DNA of 64,000 nt from Methanolobus sp. WCC4 (lineage in GTDB: Archaea > Halobacteriota > Methanosarcinia > Methanosarcinales > Methanosarcinaceae): positions 434,001 to 498,000 of the forward strand of contig NZ_CP150629.1 in the NCBI RefSeq assembly GCF_038022665.1, written 5' to 3'. This document shows positions 11,354 through 55,558 of the stretch, piece by piece. Made by a program: the position numbers and the translations under genes. Position 1 is the first letter of the stretch. Every line of letters begins with the position of its first letter. Under the pieces are notes generated by a model that made no database searches, was not told where the DNA came from, and saw nothing but the letters and a program-made list of their open reading frames with translations.

Positions 11354-11797
11354 TTACTTCTTTGACTTGCTGTCGAACAGTTCCTTTGCGCTCTCAGCAC
11401 ATGCGATAGCATCTTTCTTTATCTGGCACTCCCAGAAGACCATCACGTCCCAGCCTTCAGCTTCAAGAGCTGCTTTTTTCTTTGCGTCCCTTTCTTTGTT
11501 CTTCCTGAACTTCTCAGCCCAGAAATCGGTATTTGATCTGGGGAGAGGCAGGTCACAGTGTGGGCAGCGATGCCAATAACAGCCATGAACGAAGATGGCT
11601 ATCTTCTTTCCGGGATAGGCGATATCAGGCCTGCCTGGCACCTTCTTCCAGTGAAGACGATATCCCGGGATGCCTACTTCCCTCAGTGCCTTCCTGAAGA
11701 TGATCTCGGGTTTGGTGTTCTTCCCGGTGTTCGCGCTCATCACTCTGGATGTGGTCTCGGACTCGGGGATGGGGGCACGGCCGTCTCTGATATACAT
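11354..11797 (-). CDS. vsr: Very-short-patch-repair (Vsr) endonuclease
   Basis: Nicks DNA at T:G mismatches left by deamination of 5-methylcytosine. At 147 residues it has the family length. It shows SRVMSANTGKNTKPEI near the N-terminus, the catalytic GRPDIAYPGKKIAIFVHG stretch, the zinc-type YWHRCPHCDLP, and SNTDFWAEKFRKNKERD. It is divergent from a C5 cytosine methyltransferase that starts 86 bases away, the expected partnership. Vsr genes are sporadic in archaea and usually move with restriction-modification loci, so acquisition by transfer is likely. Confidence 0.93.
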   Translation of the reverse strand: MYIRDGRAPIPESETTSRVMSANTGKNTKPEIIFRKALREVGIPGYRLHWKKVPGRPDIAYPGKKIAIFVHGCYWHRCPHCDLPLPRSNTDFWAEKFRKNKERDAKKKAALEAEGWDVMVFWECQIKKDAIACAESAKELFDSKSKK

Positions 11798-11882
11798 GTT
11801 GTCAGAATATTTGTGGCGGAGGTATAAAAGGCAACCCTATTGGATCGAAGGTGTTATATTTCTAAAGGTCATTTCATGGAGC

Positions 11883-13508
11883 ATGACCAAAAGGCGACTG
11901 ACAGCGGCAGATTTCTTCTGCGGGGGCGGTGGATTCTCGGAAGGATTCAGACAGAACGGTTTTGAACTGCTCTTTGCCCTTGATAGCTGGCAGCCTGCCA
12001 TTGATACACATCATCTCAACCATCCGGATTGCAATGCGGTCAGGATGGATATCCTTGAACTCGATACCCCGGAGAAGATAGACGAATTCGTTCCTGACGT
12101 GGACGTGCTTATCGGAAGTCCTCCCTGTGTCTCGTTCTCCGGTTCTAACAAAGCAGGAAAAGCCGATAAGAGCCTTGGTATCCAGCTTATCGAAGCATAT
12201 CTAAGGATAATCGCGTGGAAGAAGAGCAAGGGCCAGCTAAAGTACTGGTTGCTGGAGAACGTCCCCAATGCAGGGAACTATGTTAAGGACAGATACACGT
12301 GGAAGGAACTCGGACTTCCGGGAAGCGGGGATGACCTTATTGTTGAGAGGAAAGAGGTGTTCAATGCAGCGTACTATGGCGCACCTCAGGCAAGGAAGAG
12401 ATTCGTTTGCGGGGATTTCCCTCTCCCGGAACCCACATGCAGTGATGAGTCCGAATTCACCACCACACGACAGGTGCTTGAGGCTTTGAGGAATCCTTTT
12501 GAGAAGGACCATAGCGGAACCATAAGCGACCCGAGCTATGACCTGTCCGTGCCGGCTGATTCACTGACCGACCATTTCTATGACACGCGTGTGGCTGAGT
12601 TCGAGTGGAAGAAGGCCAGAAGGATGAAGGAGGACCACGGATTCATGGGGAAGATGTCATTCCCTGAGGATCTGGACCGTCCGAGCAGGACCGTCATGGC
12701 TACAATGTCGGCGTCTACCAGAGAGGCCATGATACTTGATGCTGTGGGAGAGGATGGAGAACATATCGGGTATCGCCTGCCCACCATCAGGGAAATCGCC
12801 TCTTTCATGTCGTTCCCGATCACATACCAGTTCCAGGCCAACAATGAGAGTTCCAAGTACAGGCTTGTGGGCAATGCAGTATGCTCCCGCCTGTCCTCTG
12901 CACTTGCAAGGGCAATCCTCATAGAGGAAGGTATCGAGCCGCCTGAGAAGTTCATCCCGCTGCCGGATACAAGACCGAACGTGGACCTCAGGGGCACTAA
13001 GAGGAAGCTGAAGACAGAGAACAAGAAAAAAACTGATGCAAAGTTCGCGATCCACATCCCCTACATAAAGATAAGGGGATTCAGGGTGGAGCTTAGCAAT
13101 AAGGACTCCGATTTTGAAAAAGGCGATATCAAATGGTCCTGCATCCTGCATCAGGGAAGTGGCAAGAATGCCCTGAAGTGCAGCCCGGATGACTGTGACA
13201 TGACAGGGCTGGTCCAGCAGATTCCCGGTTTCGATGGGTTCAAAGAAGACGTTCATGAAATGTTCAGTGAACTGGATATGGACCATACGCATCTTCAGGA
13301 GGCCTATGTTGCCAGATGCGAGAGCGAGTACATCACACCGGAACAGGCACTGGACATGATGAAGGAACTTGTGGACAGGCATTTCCCTGAGGAGGATGCC
13401 TTTGTGGACAATTCCGACAGGATGATCGCTATAGACAGGGACAGGGTTCCTGTGAGGGTGATCGCGGGTATGTATGCCTGTGATTATTTTGTTGAGTGCC
13501 TGGATTAA
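11883..13508 (+). CDS. dcm: DNA (cytosine-5) methyltransferase with C-terminal extension
   Basis: Transfers methyl from SAM to C5 of cytosine. The 541 residues begin at the ATG just before the SAM motif I (ADFFCGGGGFSEGF). The catalytic loop is GSPPCVSFSG (motif IV), followed by LLENVPN (VI), QARKRFVCGDF (VIII) and RLVGNAV (X). The methyltransferase core ends near residue 360. The remaining roughly 180 residues (KIRGFRVELSNKD, ILHQGSGKNALKCSPDDCD) are not part of the standard core and may recognise DNA or a partner. An open frame extends back to 11670 over vsr but lacks homology, so I rejected that start. A hairpin terminator follows at 13535. Confidence 0.93.
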   Translation: MTKRRLTAADFFCGGGGFSEGFRQNGFELLFALDSWQPAIDTHHLNHPDCNAVRMDILELDTPEKIDEFVPDVDVLIGSPPCVSFSGSNKAGKADKSLGIQLIEAYLRIIAWKKSKGQLKYWLLENVPNAGNYVKDRYTWKELGLPGSGDDLIVERKEVFNAAYYGAPQARKRFVCGDFPLPEPTCSDESEFTTTRQVLEALRNPFEKDHSGTISDPSYDLSVPADSLTDHFYDTRVAEFEWKKARRMKEDHGFMGKMSFPEDLDRPSRTVMATMSASTREAMILDAVGEDGEHIGYRLPTIREIASFMSFPITYQFQANNESSKYRLVGNAVCSRLSSALARAILIEEGIEPPEKFIPLPDTRPNVDLRGTKRKLKTENKKKTDAKFAIHIPYIKIRGFRVELSNKDSDFEKGDIKWSCILHQGSGKNALKCSPDDCDMTGLVQQIPGFDGFKEDVHEMFSELDMDHTHLQEAYVARCESEYITPEQALDMMKELVDRHFPEEDAFVDNSDRMIAIDRDRVPVRVIAGMYACDYFVECLD

Positions 13509-14379: not shown

Positions 14380-14934
14380 TCACTTCCTTAGTTTCAAATA
14401 ATAATTCTTCTGCGTGGCAATTTCGTCTAAGATCGAATGGAGTGATCTGGACCTTTCTTTGATGTCTGGTCCTTTTGAGTTCTTTTTCGCTTCATCCAGA
14501 GCTTCTTTCAATTCCTCGATCTCTAAAACGGTTGATGCAATACAATAATATCTCTTTGAACGGCCTTCATTGAATTCCTGCAACATTTCCTTTAGCAGTT
14601 GTTCTCTGGCCTTTTGAGACATTTCAAATTCAGTCACCCCGTTCTTCCGAATAAAGGCAATATCATCTTCAAGTTTCTGATAACACTTGAACGAATCACG
14701 CTTTTTCCCAAGCTCCCTGTGTTTTTCCCATTTTTCACAGGTTTCACTCTCTTTGCAATCCCAGCAGAACTCAAGTTCTTTTTTCTTTATTCCACAGGTG
14801 ATAAAGGGACAACCTACGGCCATCCTTCCATCGCTTTTGCAGCCCAGGCACTGGCTTTTCGTATTCATGTGATAGTTTGGACAAAGCCTGCAGGAAAGCC
14901 CGCATATTCCTATTTCGGGGCATTTTATTTCCAT
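14380..14934 (-). CDS. DUF3795 family Cys-rich protein
   Basis: A 184-residue protein with an N-terminal cluster of cysteines: GICGLSCRLCP, QCLGCKSDG, VGCPFITCGIKKK and FCWDCKESETCEKW (residues about 10-68). This is the DUF3795 pattern, thought to bind zinc or an Fe-S cluster. Residues about 85-180 are helical and charged. The function is unknown. Such genes are scattered, often in accessory regions, and this one sits between the restriction-like locus and the toxin-antitoxin genes. Confidence 0.75.
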   Translation of the reverse strand: MEIKCPEIGICGLSCRLCPNYHMNTKSQCLGCKSDGRMAVGCPFITCGIKKKELEFCWDCKESETCEKWEKHRELGKKRDSFKCYQKLEDDIAFIRKNGVTEFEMSQKAREQLLKEMLQEFNEGRSKRYYCIASTVLEIEELKEALDEAKKNSKGPDIKERSRSLHSILDEIATQKNYYLKLRK

Positions 14935-15071
14935 GGGTAGTTAGTAAGTACGGCCTACTTTTAATATTTTTGTTAGCTCGGTGGAATTTATCTTAAACGT
15001 GATCAAACAAGGAAAACACAGAGAATACGCCGGAGTTTCTAATCGAGTAGTATCAGAAGGGGCTTTCGGAT

Positions 15072-15108
15072 GGATGAACACAATTTTGGATAGGATTTGT
15101 GCTCACCT
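15072..15108 (+). repeat. 37-bp hairpin repeat, copy A
   Basis: First of three 37-bp copies in the same orientation. The ends are imperfect inverted repeats (GATGAACACAA at 15073-15083, TTGTGCTCACC at 15098-15108). The sequence before it (from about 15018) also resembles that before copy B. Confidence 0.75.
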
Positions 15109-15170
15109 GTTCTCACGAAATTACTTCAATGAAAATCAATTTAATATACAATAACCGCTGATGATTAAAT

Positions 15171-15377
15171 ATGGAATACACAATCGTTCTTGAGCCAGCT
15201 GAGGAAGGTGGATACACTGCACGTTGTCTGGAACTCCCCGCAGCCATAAGTGAGGGCGATACCAGAAAGGAAGCAATAGAGAACATTAAAGAAGCCATTG
15301 AACTGGTGCTTGAAGTTACGGAAGAACAGGCAAAAGTATTTGGCGAAATCACTAAGGTTGAGATTGCAAGTGCCTGA
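15171..15377 (+). CDS. hicB: HicB-like antitoxin
   Basis: A 68-residue HicB-type protein with EYTIVLEPAEEGGYTARCLELP and SEGDTRKEAIENIKEAIEL, the typical beta-beta-helix domain. It would neutralise HicA by binding it. No C-terminal HTH or ribbon-helix-helix is present, so it is the short form and may not bind DNA alone. TTTAATATA at 15140-15148 lies 23-30 bases before the ATG. Its end overlaps hicA by eight bases, indicating coupled translation. Confidence 0.88.
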   Translation: MEYTIVLEPAEEGGYTARCLELPAAISEGDTRKEAIENIKEAIELVLEVTEEQAKVFGEITKVEIASA

Positions 15378-15582
15378 ACTACCAGCAATTTCCGGCCAGA
15401 AGACTATAAAAATACTGGTGAAACTCGGTTTTGTTGTAGTAAGGCAAAAAGGAAGTCATGTGTTTTTGCAGCGGGGGAATGATACCGTCACAGTTCCTTT
15501 GCACAACCCCCTTAAAAAAGGAACTTTGAAAAGCATTCTAAAACAAGCTAATGTTGACCTCGACGAGTTCATAAGAACCTGA
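15370..15582 (+). CDS. hicA: HicA-like toxin (mRNA interferase)
   Basis: A 70-residue HicA-type protein with a double-stranded RNA-binding-like fold. ISGQKTIKILVKLGFVVVRQKGSHVFLQRG contains the GSH motif whose histidine is catalytic in the family, followed by VPLHNPLKKGTLKSILKQA. I place the start at GTG 15370, with AAGGTTGAG as a plausible ribosome binding site; in-frame TTG codons just upstream are alternatives. Here the antitoxin gene precedes the toxin gene. Confidence 0.87.
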   Translation: MPELPAISGQKTIKILVKLGFVVVRQKGSHVFLQRGNDTVTVPLHNPLKKGTLKSILKQANVDLDEFIRT

Positions 15583-15689
15583 TAATAAGGAACATTAAGC
15601 CTTCACCAACAACACACACTTTTTTGAAAACATCTTCAGCTTGTCCATAACCACAAAAACAGCATTTACAGCAATTTCCAGCGAAGACA

Positions 15690-15727
15690 AGCTCGAAGAC
15701 ACGCGGGAGTTTCTGGTGGAGCAGTAG
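15690..15727 (+). pseudogene. Possible 3' remnant of a lost gene (with a related remnant at 15018-15054)
   Basis: A short open stretch reads EDKLEDTREFLVEQ then stop at 15725-15727. A related stretch near 15018-15054 reads ENTPEFLIE then stop. Both lie about 20 bases upstream of a 37-bp repeat copy, so the duplicated unit is about 95 bp: the end of a coding sequence plus the hairpin. I cannot identify the parent gene, and chance is not excluded. Confidence 0.3.
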
Positions 15728-15748
15728 TACCATAAGGAACTTTTGATT

Positions 15749-15785
15749 GGATGACTACATTTTTAGATGGGATTTGTAGTCACCT
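15749..15785 (+). repeat. 37-bp hairpin repeat, copy B
   Basis: Second copy, with the clearest inverted ends: GATGACTACA (15750-15759) and TGTAGTCACC (15775-15784). It lies between hicA and the hepT stop codon. Confidence 0.8.
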
Positions 15786-15819
15786 ATGAAGTTAACGACA
15801 GGTTCTAATCAAAAATATA

Positions 15820-16242
15820 TCATGAATCAGCAGTTAAATATCTTGCAACATAGCTGCCAAATTCATCGAAGTCTTCCAGCCTCTCATCCAGGAACATGTG
15901 CATTATGTCAATATCCACTTCTTCGTACATGTGGACCAGAACATTCCTGAAACCGGCTGCCTGAGCGAATTCTTCTGCAAACTCCTGAGGGATCACTCCG
16001 TTCTTGCCGAGTATAAGGAACACGCTTCTGTATACCTCGGGCCTTTCGAACCCCTCCTTTGAGATGATCATCTCACCAATATCGATCGCACTTTCAATGG
16101 CAAGCTGGAAGTTGCGCTCAACTGCACTGCGAAGTTCGTAATTGTGTTCAAGCTCATTGCTGCCTGCATCTACGGACTTCAGGTAGCTGACACACCTCTG
16201 CATGAAATCCAGTTTCCTGAGTATTTTATCCTCATCACGCAT
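15820..16242 (-). CDS. hepT: HepT-like HEPN toxin (RNase)
   Basis: A 140-residue HEPN/DUF86 protein. The RX4HXY motif of active HEPN RNases is intact (RNVLVHMYEEVD, about residues 98-109). HepT cleaves RNA, and its tyrosine in this motif is the site modified by MntA in characterised systems. The gene directly abuts mntA with no intergenic base, antitoxin first. It is probably co-transcribed from upstream of 16689. Confidence 0.92.
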   Translation of the reverse strand: MRDEDKILRKLDFMQRCVSYLKSVDAGSNELEHNYELRSAVERNFQLAIESAIDIGEMIISKEGFERPEVYRSVFLILGKNGVIPQEFAEEFAQAAGFRNVLVHMYEEVDIDIMHMFLDERLEDFDEFGSYVARYLTADS

Positions 16243-16689
16243 TCAGGCCAGCCCCTTTTCAGTAATTCTCTTGAGCAGGTTCCTGTTCATCCGGTCCTCA
16301 TAGTATTTCCAGTCCAGATACACTGACATGATGCGCTGTTCAACATCCATCTTCAGGCTGCTGTCCCTTTCAAATATCAGGACATTGGGCCTTATAACCT
16401 CAAAACTAAGTACAGGTGGAGTGTCATTGAGCACTACCACGTCTATCTTATCACTTTTCAGCAGGTCTGAGAGTTTCCCTATCAGGTCAATCCGTTTACG
16501 GATCCTTTCTTTCCCTGTCAATGTCTCAGAAAGATAGACACCGATGTCCACATCACTTAACGGACCTGCCGTATCCTCTGCCAGCGAACCAAAAAGATAG
16601 GCAAGCTCAACTGACTCTTCATCAGGGAAGAATCCTTCCAGAAGAGTAATGATCTCTTTTTTGTCATGACACGGAGCTCTTTCTATCAT
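16243..16689 (-). CDS. mntA: MntA-like nucleotidyltransferase antitoxin
   Basis: A 148-residue minimal nucleotidyltransferase. The signature GSLAEDTAGPLSDVDIGVY (G-S-x10-D-x-D) is intact, with a third acidic residue in KIDVVVLND. In known MntA/HepT pairs it blocks the toxin by adding AMP to the toxin tyrosine. The C-terminal helices (about 110-148) are of normal length. It belongs to the accessory block between the restriction-like genes and the HNH endonuclease. Confidence 0.92.
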   Translation of the reverse strand: MIERAPCHDKKEIITLLEGFFPDEESVELAYLFGSLAEDTAGPLSDVDIGVYLSETLTGKERIRKRIDLIGKLSDLLKSDKIDVVVLNDTPPVLSFEVIRPNVLIFERDSSLKMDVEQRIMSVYLDWKYYEDRMNRNLLKRITEKGLA

Positions 16690-16764
16690 AGTACCAACGG
16701 CAAAGGTGTTCTAAATTTTTCTATGTGTTTATAAGTAATAAAGATTGAGTGAGGGTGTAGTTGT

Positions 16765-16801
16765 GGGTGACTACATTTTGGGAGGGAAATTGTGGTCACC
16801 T
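16765..16801 (+). repeat. 37-bp hairpin repeat, copy C
   Basis: Third copy, in the gap between the HNH stop and the mntA start. GGTGACTACA (16766-16775) faces TGTGGTCACC (16791-16800). The upstream sequence shared by copies A and B is absent here, so the 37-bp hairpin is the minimal unit. Confidence 0.78.
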
Positions 16802-16840: not shown

Positions 16841-17611
16841 TTATAATAGGATTCTTTTCAATTCATCCATTGTCAACATTTCTTTTTTTCTGTGAACCAT
16901 CCTATGACAGTTTGAGCATAAAGGTACCAAATCTGTTTTAGGATCTACTTTTTCTTCTCCAGTATAAGATGAAAGTGGGAAAAGATGATGTATCTCAATA
17001 AAACCACTTCCGTGTTGACCATATCTTTCTTGAAAATCGAATCCACAGGCAACGCATTTTGTCCCGTGATATTTTAGTGCTTCAACACGTAGTTTGGGAT
17101 TCCTTTCAAAATATGTTTGAATCCTTGTTCTTTCTTTACCTTCTGCATATTTTTCTGCGACATGTCCTTCAGAAGGTTCTTTTAAGGTTTCAAAATCACC
17201 AGAATCGCTCAATCCTAGATCCAACGCCTGTAAGACGAAATGTGTTGGTTTATCTCCAGAATGTGAAATGTACTGGAATCTTCCGAGATGCTTAAATGCA
17301 GACTCCGGATATTCTTTTATGTGCTCCCTATAAAACACAATTAATTCAGCATCATTGTCTAAGTGGTTGATTATCTTGTGATCAGTTCTTCCCTTTAACT
17401 GCCCTTCAAAATTCAATATTTGACCATCAAAATCGTCACTATAAGCTGTCCTATCAGGGGTTTTGTTTTTAGTTACAAAGATCCAGACTGAAGAATGACC
17501 TTTCGGCTGAAATATGCCAGTATTTATGGTAGCATCAGTTATTTGAAATAGATCCTTAAGATCATTCCTTGAATATACAGAGAGAACATCAAGATATTCT
17601 GAACTTTTCAT
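16841..17611 (-). CDS. HNH endonuclease with N-terminal modification-sensing-type domain
   Basis: 256 residues. Residues about 10-130 resemble the DUF3427-like domain attached to restriction-type nucleases (SRNDLKDLFQ, SSVWIFVTKNK, YREHIKEYPES). Residues about 165-256 are a McrA-type HNH nuclease: KYHGTKCVACGFDF, then FIEIHHLFPLS, then DLVPLCSNCHRMVH, with both zinc Cys pairs and the catalytic His pair present. The architecture suits a type IV enzyme that cuts modified foreign DNA; the substrate is unknown. The gene is visibly more AT-rich than neighbouring housekeeping genes, which fits transfer. Confidence 0.8.
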   Translation of the reverse strand: MKSSEYLDVLSVYSRNDLKDLFQITDATINTGIFQPKGHSSVWIFVTKNKTPDRTAYSDDFDGQILNFEGQLKGRTDHKIINHLDNDAELIVFYREHIKEYPESAFKHLGRFQYISHSGDKPTHFVLQALDLGLSDSGDFETLKEPSEGHVAEKYAEGKERTRIQTYFERNPKLRVEALKYHGTKCVACGFDFQERYGQHGSGFIEIHHLFPLSSYTGEEKVDPKTDLVPLCSNCHRMVHRKKEMLTMDELKRILL

Positions 17612-50280: not shown

Positions 50281-50299
50281 ATAGGTTGTATGAGTGAGT

Positions 50300-50420
50300 T
50301 GGCAGCGTTCTATAGTTCCCAAAGACTCTCGTACTTAAGTACAGTATAGGACGCAGGCGGACTTATCTTCTGTGTTCGGGATGGGTACAGGAATTGCCCC
50401 GCCGCTATGGCCGCCAAACT
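50300..50420 (-). rRNA. rrf: 5S ribosomal RNA
   Basis: About 121 bases. The 5' strand GTTTGGCGGCCATAGCGG pairs at the end with the 3' strand, and the conserved CCCATCCCGAACACAGAAG is present. Ends are placed by the terminal stem and may be off by a few bases. It is the last gene of the operon, with tRNA-Cys between it and 23S. Confidence 0.95.
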
Positions 50421-50444
50421 CTCTCATGATGAAGGTAAACGTAA

Positions 50445-50516
50445 AGCCAAGATCCGGATTCGAACCGGAATGGAATCGCTCTGCAGGCGATTGCGTAGCC
50501 GCTCCGCCATCTTGGC
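50445..50516 (-). tRNA. tRNA-Cys (GCA)
   Basis: 72 bases. The acceptor stem GCCAAGA/TCTTGGC closes the cloverleaf, the anticodon loop CTGCAGA holds GCA, and the T arm is CCGGTTCGAATCCGG. The discriminator is U73, the identity base for tRNA-Cys. No CCA is encoded. It lies between 23S and 5S on the same strand. Confidence 0.95.
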
Positions 50517-50567
50517 AATGAGCGATTGATGAACGGATTCATACTATTTATACATTACCTTAGATAA

Positions 50568-50610
50568 CGTGTATATTAACATGCACATATCAGATTTCGC
50601 CTGGACAAAG
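50568..50610 (-). other. 3' arm of the 23S processing stem
   Basis: This segment pairs with 53545-53585 on the other side of 23S. CTTTGTCCAG and TCTGATAT...TGCATG...ATATACACG are found in both, with small interruptions, giving a long stem suitable for the archaeal splicing endonuclease. Confidence 0.75.
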
Positions 50611-50619
50611 CAAGACGGA

Positions 50620-53535
<2,916 letters not shown>

Positions 53536-53544
53536 TCCATCTCA

Positions 53545-53585
53545 CTTTGTCCAGTGAGCGTCTGATATATGCATGCATATACACG
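53545..53585 (-). other. 5' arm of the 23S processing stem
   Basis: Pairs with 50568-50610 (see that entry). It lies in the spacer between tRNA-Ala and 23S. Confidence 0.75.
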
Positions 53586-53659
53586 ATATCATTGCGGCCG
53601 TCGTTGCTTCGACCGCTTCATCCTTCCCCGGAGACATTACTCTCCAGGTGCACTATTAA

Positions 53660-53732
53660 TGGACTTGCAGGGATTCGAACCCTGGGCCTTCGCCTTGCAA
53701 AGGCGACGATCTTCCAACTGATCTACAAGCCC
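53660..53732 (-). tRNA. tRNA-Ala (TGC)
   Basis: 73 bases in the 16S-23S spacer, the usual place in Euryarchaeota. GGGCTTG/CAAGTCC form the acceptor stem (with one G-U pair near the end), the anticodon loop TTTGCAA holds TGC, and the T arm is CAGGGTTCGAATCCCTG. The discriminator is A73. No CCA is encoded. Confidence 0.96.
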
Positions 53733-53788
53733 ATAGAAGATTCACTTAGAATCTTACCTTGTTATCTCGGATCTGACAGTTTTTCGAT

Positions 53789-53800
53789 TTCTGACCGGTA
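53789..53800 (-). other. 3' arm of the 16S processing stem
   Basis: The 12 bases at 53789-53800 are an exact inverted match of 55432-55443. A further three pairs follow after a one-base bulge. The two lie on either side of 16S, as expected for the pre-16S bulge-helix-bulge stem. Confidence 0.75.
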
Positions 53801-53831
53801 AGTGGTGATGGACTTTGTGTCCATCATGCTT

Positions 53832-55304
<1,473 letters not shown>

Positions 55305-55558
55305 TTGTTGATCACACACAAAGGATTGTATTATGGAAGTCATTTAAGGAATCATTAGGAAAGAACTCTCACTAGAGATTCTTTACACATGCACATTAGT
55401 TGGTTAATTCCTTCATTTAGTAGTTATACACTACCGGTCAGAATTAACCGAACTGCCAAATCCAACGTCGGACAGAAACAGCTTCTGTCCCCACTAATAA
55501 GGCGGTGATCGTAAGTGTTCCGCGTGATTCACGCGGACTCCTTCAAAGGACATCATCG
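55305..55558 (-). other. Pre-rRNA leader with hairpins and 16S stem 5' arm
   Basis: Between the candidate promoter and 16S the minus strand carries three structures. One is a nine-pair hairpin TCCGCGTGA/TCACGCGGA at 55519-55537, at the predicted transcript start. A second is the eight-pair hairpin GGACAGAA/TTCTGTCC (55470-55490). The third is the 5' arm of the 16S processing stem at 55432-55443. Confidence 0.6.

Follow-up and report, generated by a model that had tools for sequence, protein, structure and literature searches.

Most of what is known about gene-cassette systems comes from the integrons of bacteria and from dif modules. The attC sites of integrons carry R' and R'' boxes of the form RYYYAAC and GTTRRRY; dif sites have an 11-6-11 architecture, and the chromosomal dif site lies near the replication terminus. 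Mobile insertion cassettes consist of a passenger gene between IS ends and contain no transposase; their ends correspond to those of an autonomous IS that duplicates its target. Integrons were described in archaea in 2022, with cassettes that generally lie in one orientation and attC sites that fold (PMC9668308). In dif and pdif modules, toxin-antitoxin and other genes are reported to be shuffled between short, partly palindromic sites (PMC13141974). The PATEs of Haloquadratum have near-terminal palindromes and no target duplication, and deletion of the core leaves a single palindrome (PMC3119063). By mode of working, integron cassette arrays, dif modules and PATEs are the nearest counterparts of the palindromic site described here, termed S, which belongs in full to none of them. 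Literature searches on Methanolobus islands, archaeal cassettes and mobile Fic proteins returned no account of the S system, most subscription papers and all bioRxiv preprints being outside their scope.

The window analysed is a 64,000-nt stretch (G000:C1:434001-498000) of the single-contig, 2.85-Mb genome of Methanolobus sp. WCC4. An initial annotation of this stretch reported three 37-bp hairpin repeats in the same orientation that flank hicBA and mntA-hepT. All three copies are indeed present on the plus strand, far above chance, and the gene identities are borne out by Pfam (Table 1). Copy 2 matches the 36-nt consensus at 35/36 positions and copies 3 and 1 at 30/36 each, the next-best place in the 64-kb window being copy 3 on the opposite strand (22/36); a shuffled-window control for the S pattern gave 0 matches. 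Folded as single-stranded DNA, copies 2, 3 and 1 reach z values of -3.5, -4.5 and -1.2, respectively. The two remnants of a fic C-terminus in Table 1 both align with fic residues 278-298: the one before copy 1 at 52% identity in tblastn with an E-value of 0.68, weak alone, and a flank comparison z of 11.4; the one before copy 2 at 82% identity, with an E-value of 0.012 and a z of 11.9. Since these remnants precede copies 1 and 2, the window hicBA has the 3' end of a dead fic unit on either side. The interiors of the two copies are identical at 12/15 positions, and the genome itself has no fic match at 1e-30. Orthologues of copy 3, the mntA-side sites, occur in six congeners.

Table 1. Features of the S-bordered region, in positions of the window
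Feature	Position	Strand	Remarks
PIN/KH-domain ATPase gene C0	5968..7815	+	conserved left hotspot border; 19/21 loci
Vsr-like and cytosine DNA methylase genes	11354..13508	- (Vsr-like), + (methylase)	variable island; PF03852, PF00145
DUF3795 gene	14380..14934	-	cassette gene upstream of copy 1; PF12675; cluster C18, 5/21 loci
Remnant of fic C-terminus	15003..15065	+	ends 8 nt before copy 1
S site, copy 1	15072..15108	+	next to hicB; most decayed copy, with 3 mismatches in the arms; 3' site of a dead fic unit
hicB-like antitoxin gene	15171..15377	+	hicBA cassette between copies 1 and 2; PF15919, E 5e-7
hicA toxin ORF	15298..15582	+	domain at residues 34-85; PF07927, E 4e-20
Remnant of fic C-terminus	15677..15742	+	ends 8 nt before copy 2
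S site, copy 2	15749..15785	+	between hicA and hepT; 3' site of second dead fic unit
hepT toxin gene	15820..16242	-	mntA-hepT cassette between copies 2 and 3; PF01934, E 3e-30
mntA antitoxin gene	16243..16689	-	PF18765, E 2e-20
S site, copy 3	16765..16801	+	upstream of mntA, 77 bp from mntA start
HNH endonuclease-like gene	16841..17611	-	beyond copy 3; PF01844, E 3.5e-6
C6 gene	17787..19082	+	right hotspot border; 16/21 loci

The S family has the consensus RGGTGACYACA-N15-TGTRGTCACCY and a site length of 35-37 bp. With up to 3 mismatches, the pattern GGTGACTACA-N15-TGTGGTCACC is found in 24/27 Methanolobus genomes, against 2/27 for a reversed control pattern. Of 48 distinct sites, 42 have a 15-nt and 6 a 16-nt interior; the 10-bp arms are 95-100% conserved at every position but the seventh, which is C or T, and a purine stands immediately outside the arms in 99% of half-sites. 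The arms contain a GTGnnCAC dyad. The middle of the repeat had initially been described as conserved; across the family it is the arms that are nearly invariant, and the 15-nt interior varies and is weakly conserved. The interior polarity score of 158, compared with at most 85 in within-site shuffles (only L031 and L034 dropped), is only a hint, because orthologues inflate it. Scoring was confined to sites with at most 3 mismatches in the arms and an interior of 14-17 nt, apart from an N13 site in L071 that was added for the count of fic adjacency. Collapsed sites occur in L057 and L071 just after a methyltransferase gene, where GGTGACT is joined straight to TATGGTCATC and the middle seems lost.

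The number of copies in Methanolobus genomes with S ranges from 1 to 6, always at a single locus: the matches of a genome share a contig and fall within about 10 kb (two contigs in G022), and at up to 3 mismatches the WCC4 genome has no copy outside this hotspot. The label of a REP/MITE-like family therefore has to be dropped, given the lack of off-hotspot copies in this genome and the intact genes that the units carry, and a genome-wide REP/MITE, dispersed and non-coding, is out as an identity for S. Exact matches outside Methanolobus in the contig database (one per record) were taken as chance, as were single sites in G149 and G012:C33; the control pattern also matched 2/111 genomes. Searched for in the genome and its relatives, the copies were not scattered at random without a link to mobile genes. 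The companion suggestion that the repeats mark or move accessory cassettes fits better: S borders accessory genes in 24/27 genomes at one hotspot, and a discrete unit of fic between two S sites (S-fic-S) occurs at unrelated loci in three further genera.

Multiple S copies of a genome cluster beside the PIN-ATPase gene, 0.7-4 kb apart. In the 21 loci mapped, this gene (C0, whose orthologue matches Pfam PIN, T2SSE and KH) and C6, which we take to be UDP-glucose dehydrogenase-like, lie on either side of the variable part (counts in Table 1). The S-bordered accessory units comprise fic, mntA-hepT, hicBA, a class I methyltransferase, a DUF3427/PLD helicase, DUF3795 and TetR-ABC-ABC (TetR and ABC genes named by eye); glyoxalase, GyrI-like, Vsr with cytosine methylase, and HNH genes are further island units at S. 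The Vsr-like/cytosine methylase pair is also present in L058 and L064. S stands at the unit edges whatever the gene direction, and not on both sides of every unit, several mntA-hepT copies being without it. The arm motif GGTGACC supplies the TGA stop of the neighbouring DUF3427 helicase gene in several genomes (L062:10193-10197, L073:8428-8432, L067:8532-8536), and hicA of G040 ends inside an S site likewise (L056:7623-7627). A transposase-like ORF, identified by eye, lies inside the G016 island (L057:11028-12182).

Both neighbours are known for 46 sites; 18 of these have a 3' end on each side, 14 have a 5' end on each side and 14 are mixed, a distribution that argues against a terminator and against a simple operator. 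In archaea, termination depends on T tracts, and the sites are not followed by a regular T run. A role of S as a bidirectional transcription terminator or RNA hairpin, for which one could cite that the hairpins fold and that many sites directly follow stop codons, is thus very improbable, the 14 sites between two 5' ends being a further objection. At gathering scores, cmscan found rRNA and tRNA only in the window and no other RNA family; a complete archaeal rRNA operon and two tRNA genes lie on the minus strand at 50297-55305.

The island resembles integrons and archaeal CALINs in having small accessory cassettes at one locus and palindromic sites with conserved ends and a variable centre, and in cargo that includes toxin-antitoxin, glyoxalase and GyrI-like genes. 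The GyrI-like gene at L056:9550-10008 also matches Pfam Cass2, an integron-associated effector binding protein and typical integron cargo. The S arms, GGTGACYACA and TGTRGTCACC, differ from attC in having no R' or R'' boxes, and S differs from integron sites in its 35-37 bp length with 10-bp arms, and in the presence of a site on each side of fic. No IntI was found beside the array in the window region, in which respect the island would resemble CALINs (PMC9668308). The common cassette orientation that the integron report uses as a criterion is not seen here, as neighbouring S-bordered cassettes lie in both orientations (PMC9668308). The placement of toxin-antitoxin and other genes between short palindromic sites recalls dif/pdif modules (PMC13141974). 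The 10-15-10 layout of S, with an interior of 15 or 16 nt, differs from that of dif. In 8/9 few-contig genomes the distance between the hotspot and the best orc1/cdc6 match is about 100-150 kb, and in G008, if circular, it is about 0.3 Mb. As the hotspot is near orc1 rather than opposite it, S is ruled out as the chromosomal dif site at the terminus.

The fic gene has S on both sides in nearly all cases. We examined 13 intact fic genes, ten from Methanolobus and three from other genera, and 12 of them have S directly on both sides; the L063 copy is without a detected 3' S. An intact fic adjoins 25 of the 60 sites and a fic remnant another 9; the remaining 26 have no trace of fic. Six rows (L031, L034, L054, L077 and L079) were dropped from the fic-adjacency, interior-comparison and neighbour-orientation counts, because the same sites are present in L065, L168, L167, L170 and L169; L167-L170 were added by hand to the first two counts and not to the third. 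The sites are partly dependent, many being orthologues. In nine intact Methanolobus units the neighbour genes differ, and the 60-nt flanks outside the unit are near random in most pairs, those inside being alike per lineage. Interiors of the fic type also occur without fic at L072:7460, L072:8184, L068:9376, L071:9403 and L169:5426, with L068:9376 and L071:9403 counting as one since they are orthologous.

Outside Methanolobus, fic orthologues were found in three other genera of the family, two at 63-68% identity and a third besides. They are flanked by 35-nt palindromes with the layout of S and shifted arms of the GGTGWCCACH type, so that fic accompanied by S extends to four genera. The S-fic-S unit measures 979 bp in each of G110, G113 and G129 and is 78-81% identical end to end; the 150-nt flanks share 23-29% identity, and the change falls at the palindromes (50-nt windows). 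The three units lie at unrelated loci with different neighbours and show no target duplication, and the pair of sites around fic is present in 1/8, 1/11 and 1/1 genomes of the genera of G110, G113 and G129, respectively. A mobile unit shows just this combination of patchy occurrence, fixed ends and differing surroundings. An empty-site comparison for the G110 unit within its genus met broken synteny. More distant Fic proteins (two checked, 37-38% identity) are without such palindromes. Directly beyond the G110 unit lies a hicB-like gene (L164:8453-8629, by eye), which may be compared with the hicBA genes that adjoin fic remnants in the window and in L058. A transposase-like ORF (L165:10344-11285, by eye) is located 1.6 kb from the G113 unit.

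These units raise an alternative in which S-fic-S would be small, transposable and non-autonomous, like a mobile insertion cassette or a passenger-bearing PATE. A transposase in trans would use its palindromic ends, lone S sites would be scars of repeat-mediated deletion between the ends, and the other genes would be mere neighbours. The discrete 979-bp unit at three unrelated loci speaks for it, as does the tally of 34/60 sites beside fic or its remnants with 5 more of fic-type interior. Like PATEs, the units are archaeal, have palindromic ends and show no target-site duplication, and deletion of PATE cores leaves terminal-only elements (PMC3119063). Deletion between palindromes, by which PATE cores are lost, could likewise have produced the sites without fic (PMC3119063). 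Plain repeat-mediated deletion between the arms could in general account for fic removal. PATEs are recognised by palindromes near both termini, no terminal inverted repeats and ends related to IS605-type transposons; S palindromes, in contrast, stand at the very ends, an intact gene is carried, and the copies of each Methanolobus genome lie at one locus. In S-fic-S the identity stops right at the palindromes; those of PATEs are near-terminal (PMC3119063). S-fic-S shares with mobile insertion cassettes a gene between repeated ends without a transposase, and differs from them in lacking a target duplication. No S occurs elsewhere in the 27 Methanolobus genomes and hence no autonomous partner with like ends, several S positions have no fic trace and their interiors move too, and the arms are conserved in genomes without fic. 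On this evidence we consider a purely transposable fic unit unlikely.

The exchange of interiors is evident from several comparisons. The fic genes of G040 and G022 are 93% identical at 4-fold sites and have both flanks in common, yet their 3' interiors agree at only 6/15 positions, and the G040 interior (G040:12927) recurs at 13/15 at an unrelated G022 junction (L060:9542). Among further pairs, the interiors of G040:7593 and G016:7173 agree at 14/15 with no flank in common, and that of the TetR-side site agrees with G022:2703 at 12/15; shuffled interiors give an expectation of 0.055 pairs with at least 12/15 among 861. Pairs of S sites with like interiors surround single cassettes in the case of the window hicBA (12), G022 TetR-ABC (12), G016 C30 (12) and the G002 methyltransferase (12.5). 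The 5' interior travels with fic (14-16/16 within Methanolobus; 11-13/15 between genera, 37/45 in all) and has a TATA-like centre. The 3' interior does not follow fic, with 4-5/15 between genera versus 53% identity at 4-fold sites, in pairs that are non-independent.

The arms behave differently from the interiors. In five orthologous mntA-side sites, the variable columns number 2/20 in the arms, 8/15 in the interior and 18/40 in the flanks (arms versus the remaining 26/55, Fisher p 0.0024), and a fic search of two of these genomes, G023 and G041, found no fic. The arms are thus kept in genomes without fic, so they matter to the cell or the system even there, and their conservation by descent suggests a role in the host, for example as a binding site for a protein. 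No other observation favours a binding protein as strongly, and this constraint keeps alive the alternative that S is an operator or boundary element, at whose arms a host protein would bind and control fic and the neighbouring toxin-antitoxin genes, with cassette turnover by ordinary recombination and transfer. The GTGnnCAC dyad and the strongly conserved, TATA-like 5' interior at fic agree with such a role. We nevertheless give it a low probability: 18/46 sites lie between two 3' ends, where a promoter is not expected, the sites are confined to one locus, interiors move between junctions and flanks stay, and unit edges coincide with S in unrelated contexts.

Taken together, S is a real genus-wide feature that forms the palindromic borders of an exchangeable island, the fic unit of which also occurs alone in relatives. 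Recombination at S sites is well supported by sequence comparison, and the initial proposal of a recombination site fits both the accessory-gene borders at the hotspot and the S-fic-S unit at unrelated loci in three genera. Our main reading, with a probability of about 0.5, is that S is the recombination or end site of an exchangeable gene-cassette island in Methanolobus, integron-like or PATE-like. At S, the island genes, fic first, appear to be gained, lost and swapped in the form of cassettes. In the proposed mechanism, i) cassettes (fic with S on each side; mntA-hepT, hicBA, methyltransferase, DUF3795, TetR-ABC and others) would be joined and removed at S, ii) a trans-acting recombinase or transposase would bind to the palindromic arms, and iii) the variable interior would be carried between sites. 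Copies 1 and 2 of the window would then be the leftovers of two dead fic units around hicBA, and copy 3 the site beside mntA.

A dedicated enzyme, presumably a recombinase or transposase, would act at S; no recombinase tied to S was found. Pfam searches of the WCC4 genome returned no serine recombinase and matched four tyrosine recombinases, one of them with a score under the family threshold. Each of 12 genomes searched has at least one tyrosine recombinase, with a patchy distribution and none shown to be universal. The 31 of these enzymes compared (best loci only) fall into many groups, the largest of which is present in 7/12 genomes and has a seemingly truncated member in G000. No tyrosine recombinase lies beside the array in the window region. 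The L097-type enzyme was rejected as the agent, being present in 13/45 relatives only. L098 (G000:C1:66257-66613) is a zinc-ribbon-type tyrosine recombinase that seems truncated, and relatives of its type occur in or adjoining the hotspot stretches of L056, L064 and L066. As for carriers, the single exact S match in viral contigs is a terminator-like perfect hairpin that was judged a chance hit, and no viral relative of the S-linked Fic was found; the 1245 plasmid records that match Fic are all below 60% identity, none covering 80%. Neither a same-species pair of before and after states nor a circular form was seen.

A bolder version, which we hold as tentative and somewhat doubtful, is that Methanolobus and, sporadically, its relatives have a cassette exchange system unrelated to integrons and Xer/dif. 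Here a dedicated archaeal recombinase would act on 35-37-bp palindromes with freely varying interiors and gather toxin-antitoxin, defence and detoxification genes at one hotspot, with fic as the most mobile cassette. If the cassette reading is true, the problem that integrons and dif modules solve would have a second solution in this genus-wide island of archaeal cassettes with a site of its own, and the gathering of toxin-antitoxin and defence genes at one place would be explained. The system would be testable in methanogens. Finally, the fic unit, which has the same length in three genera, would be very small for a mobile unit that carries a gene.
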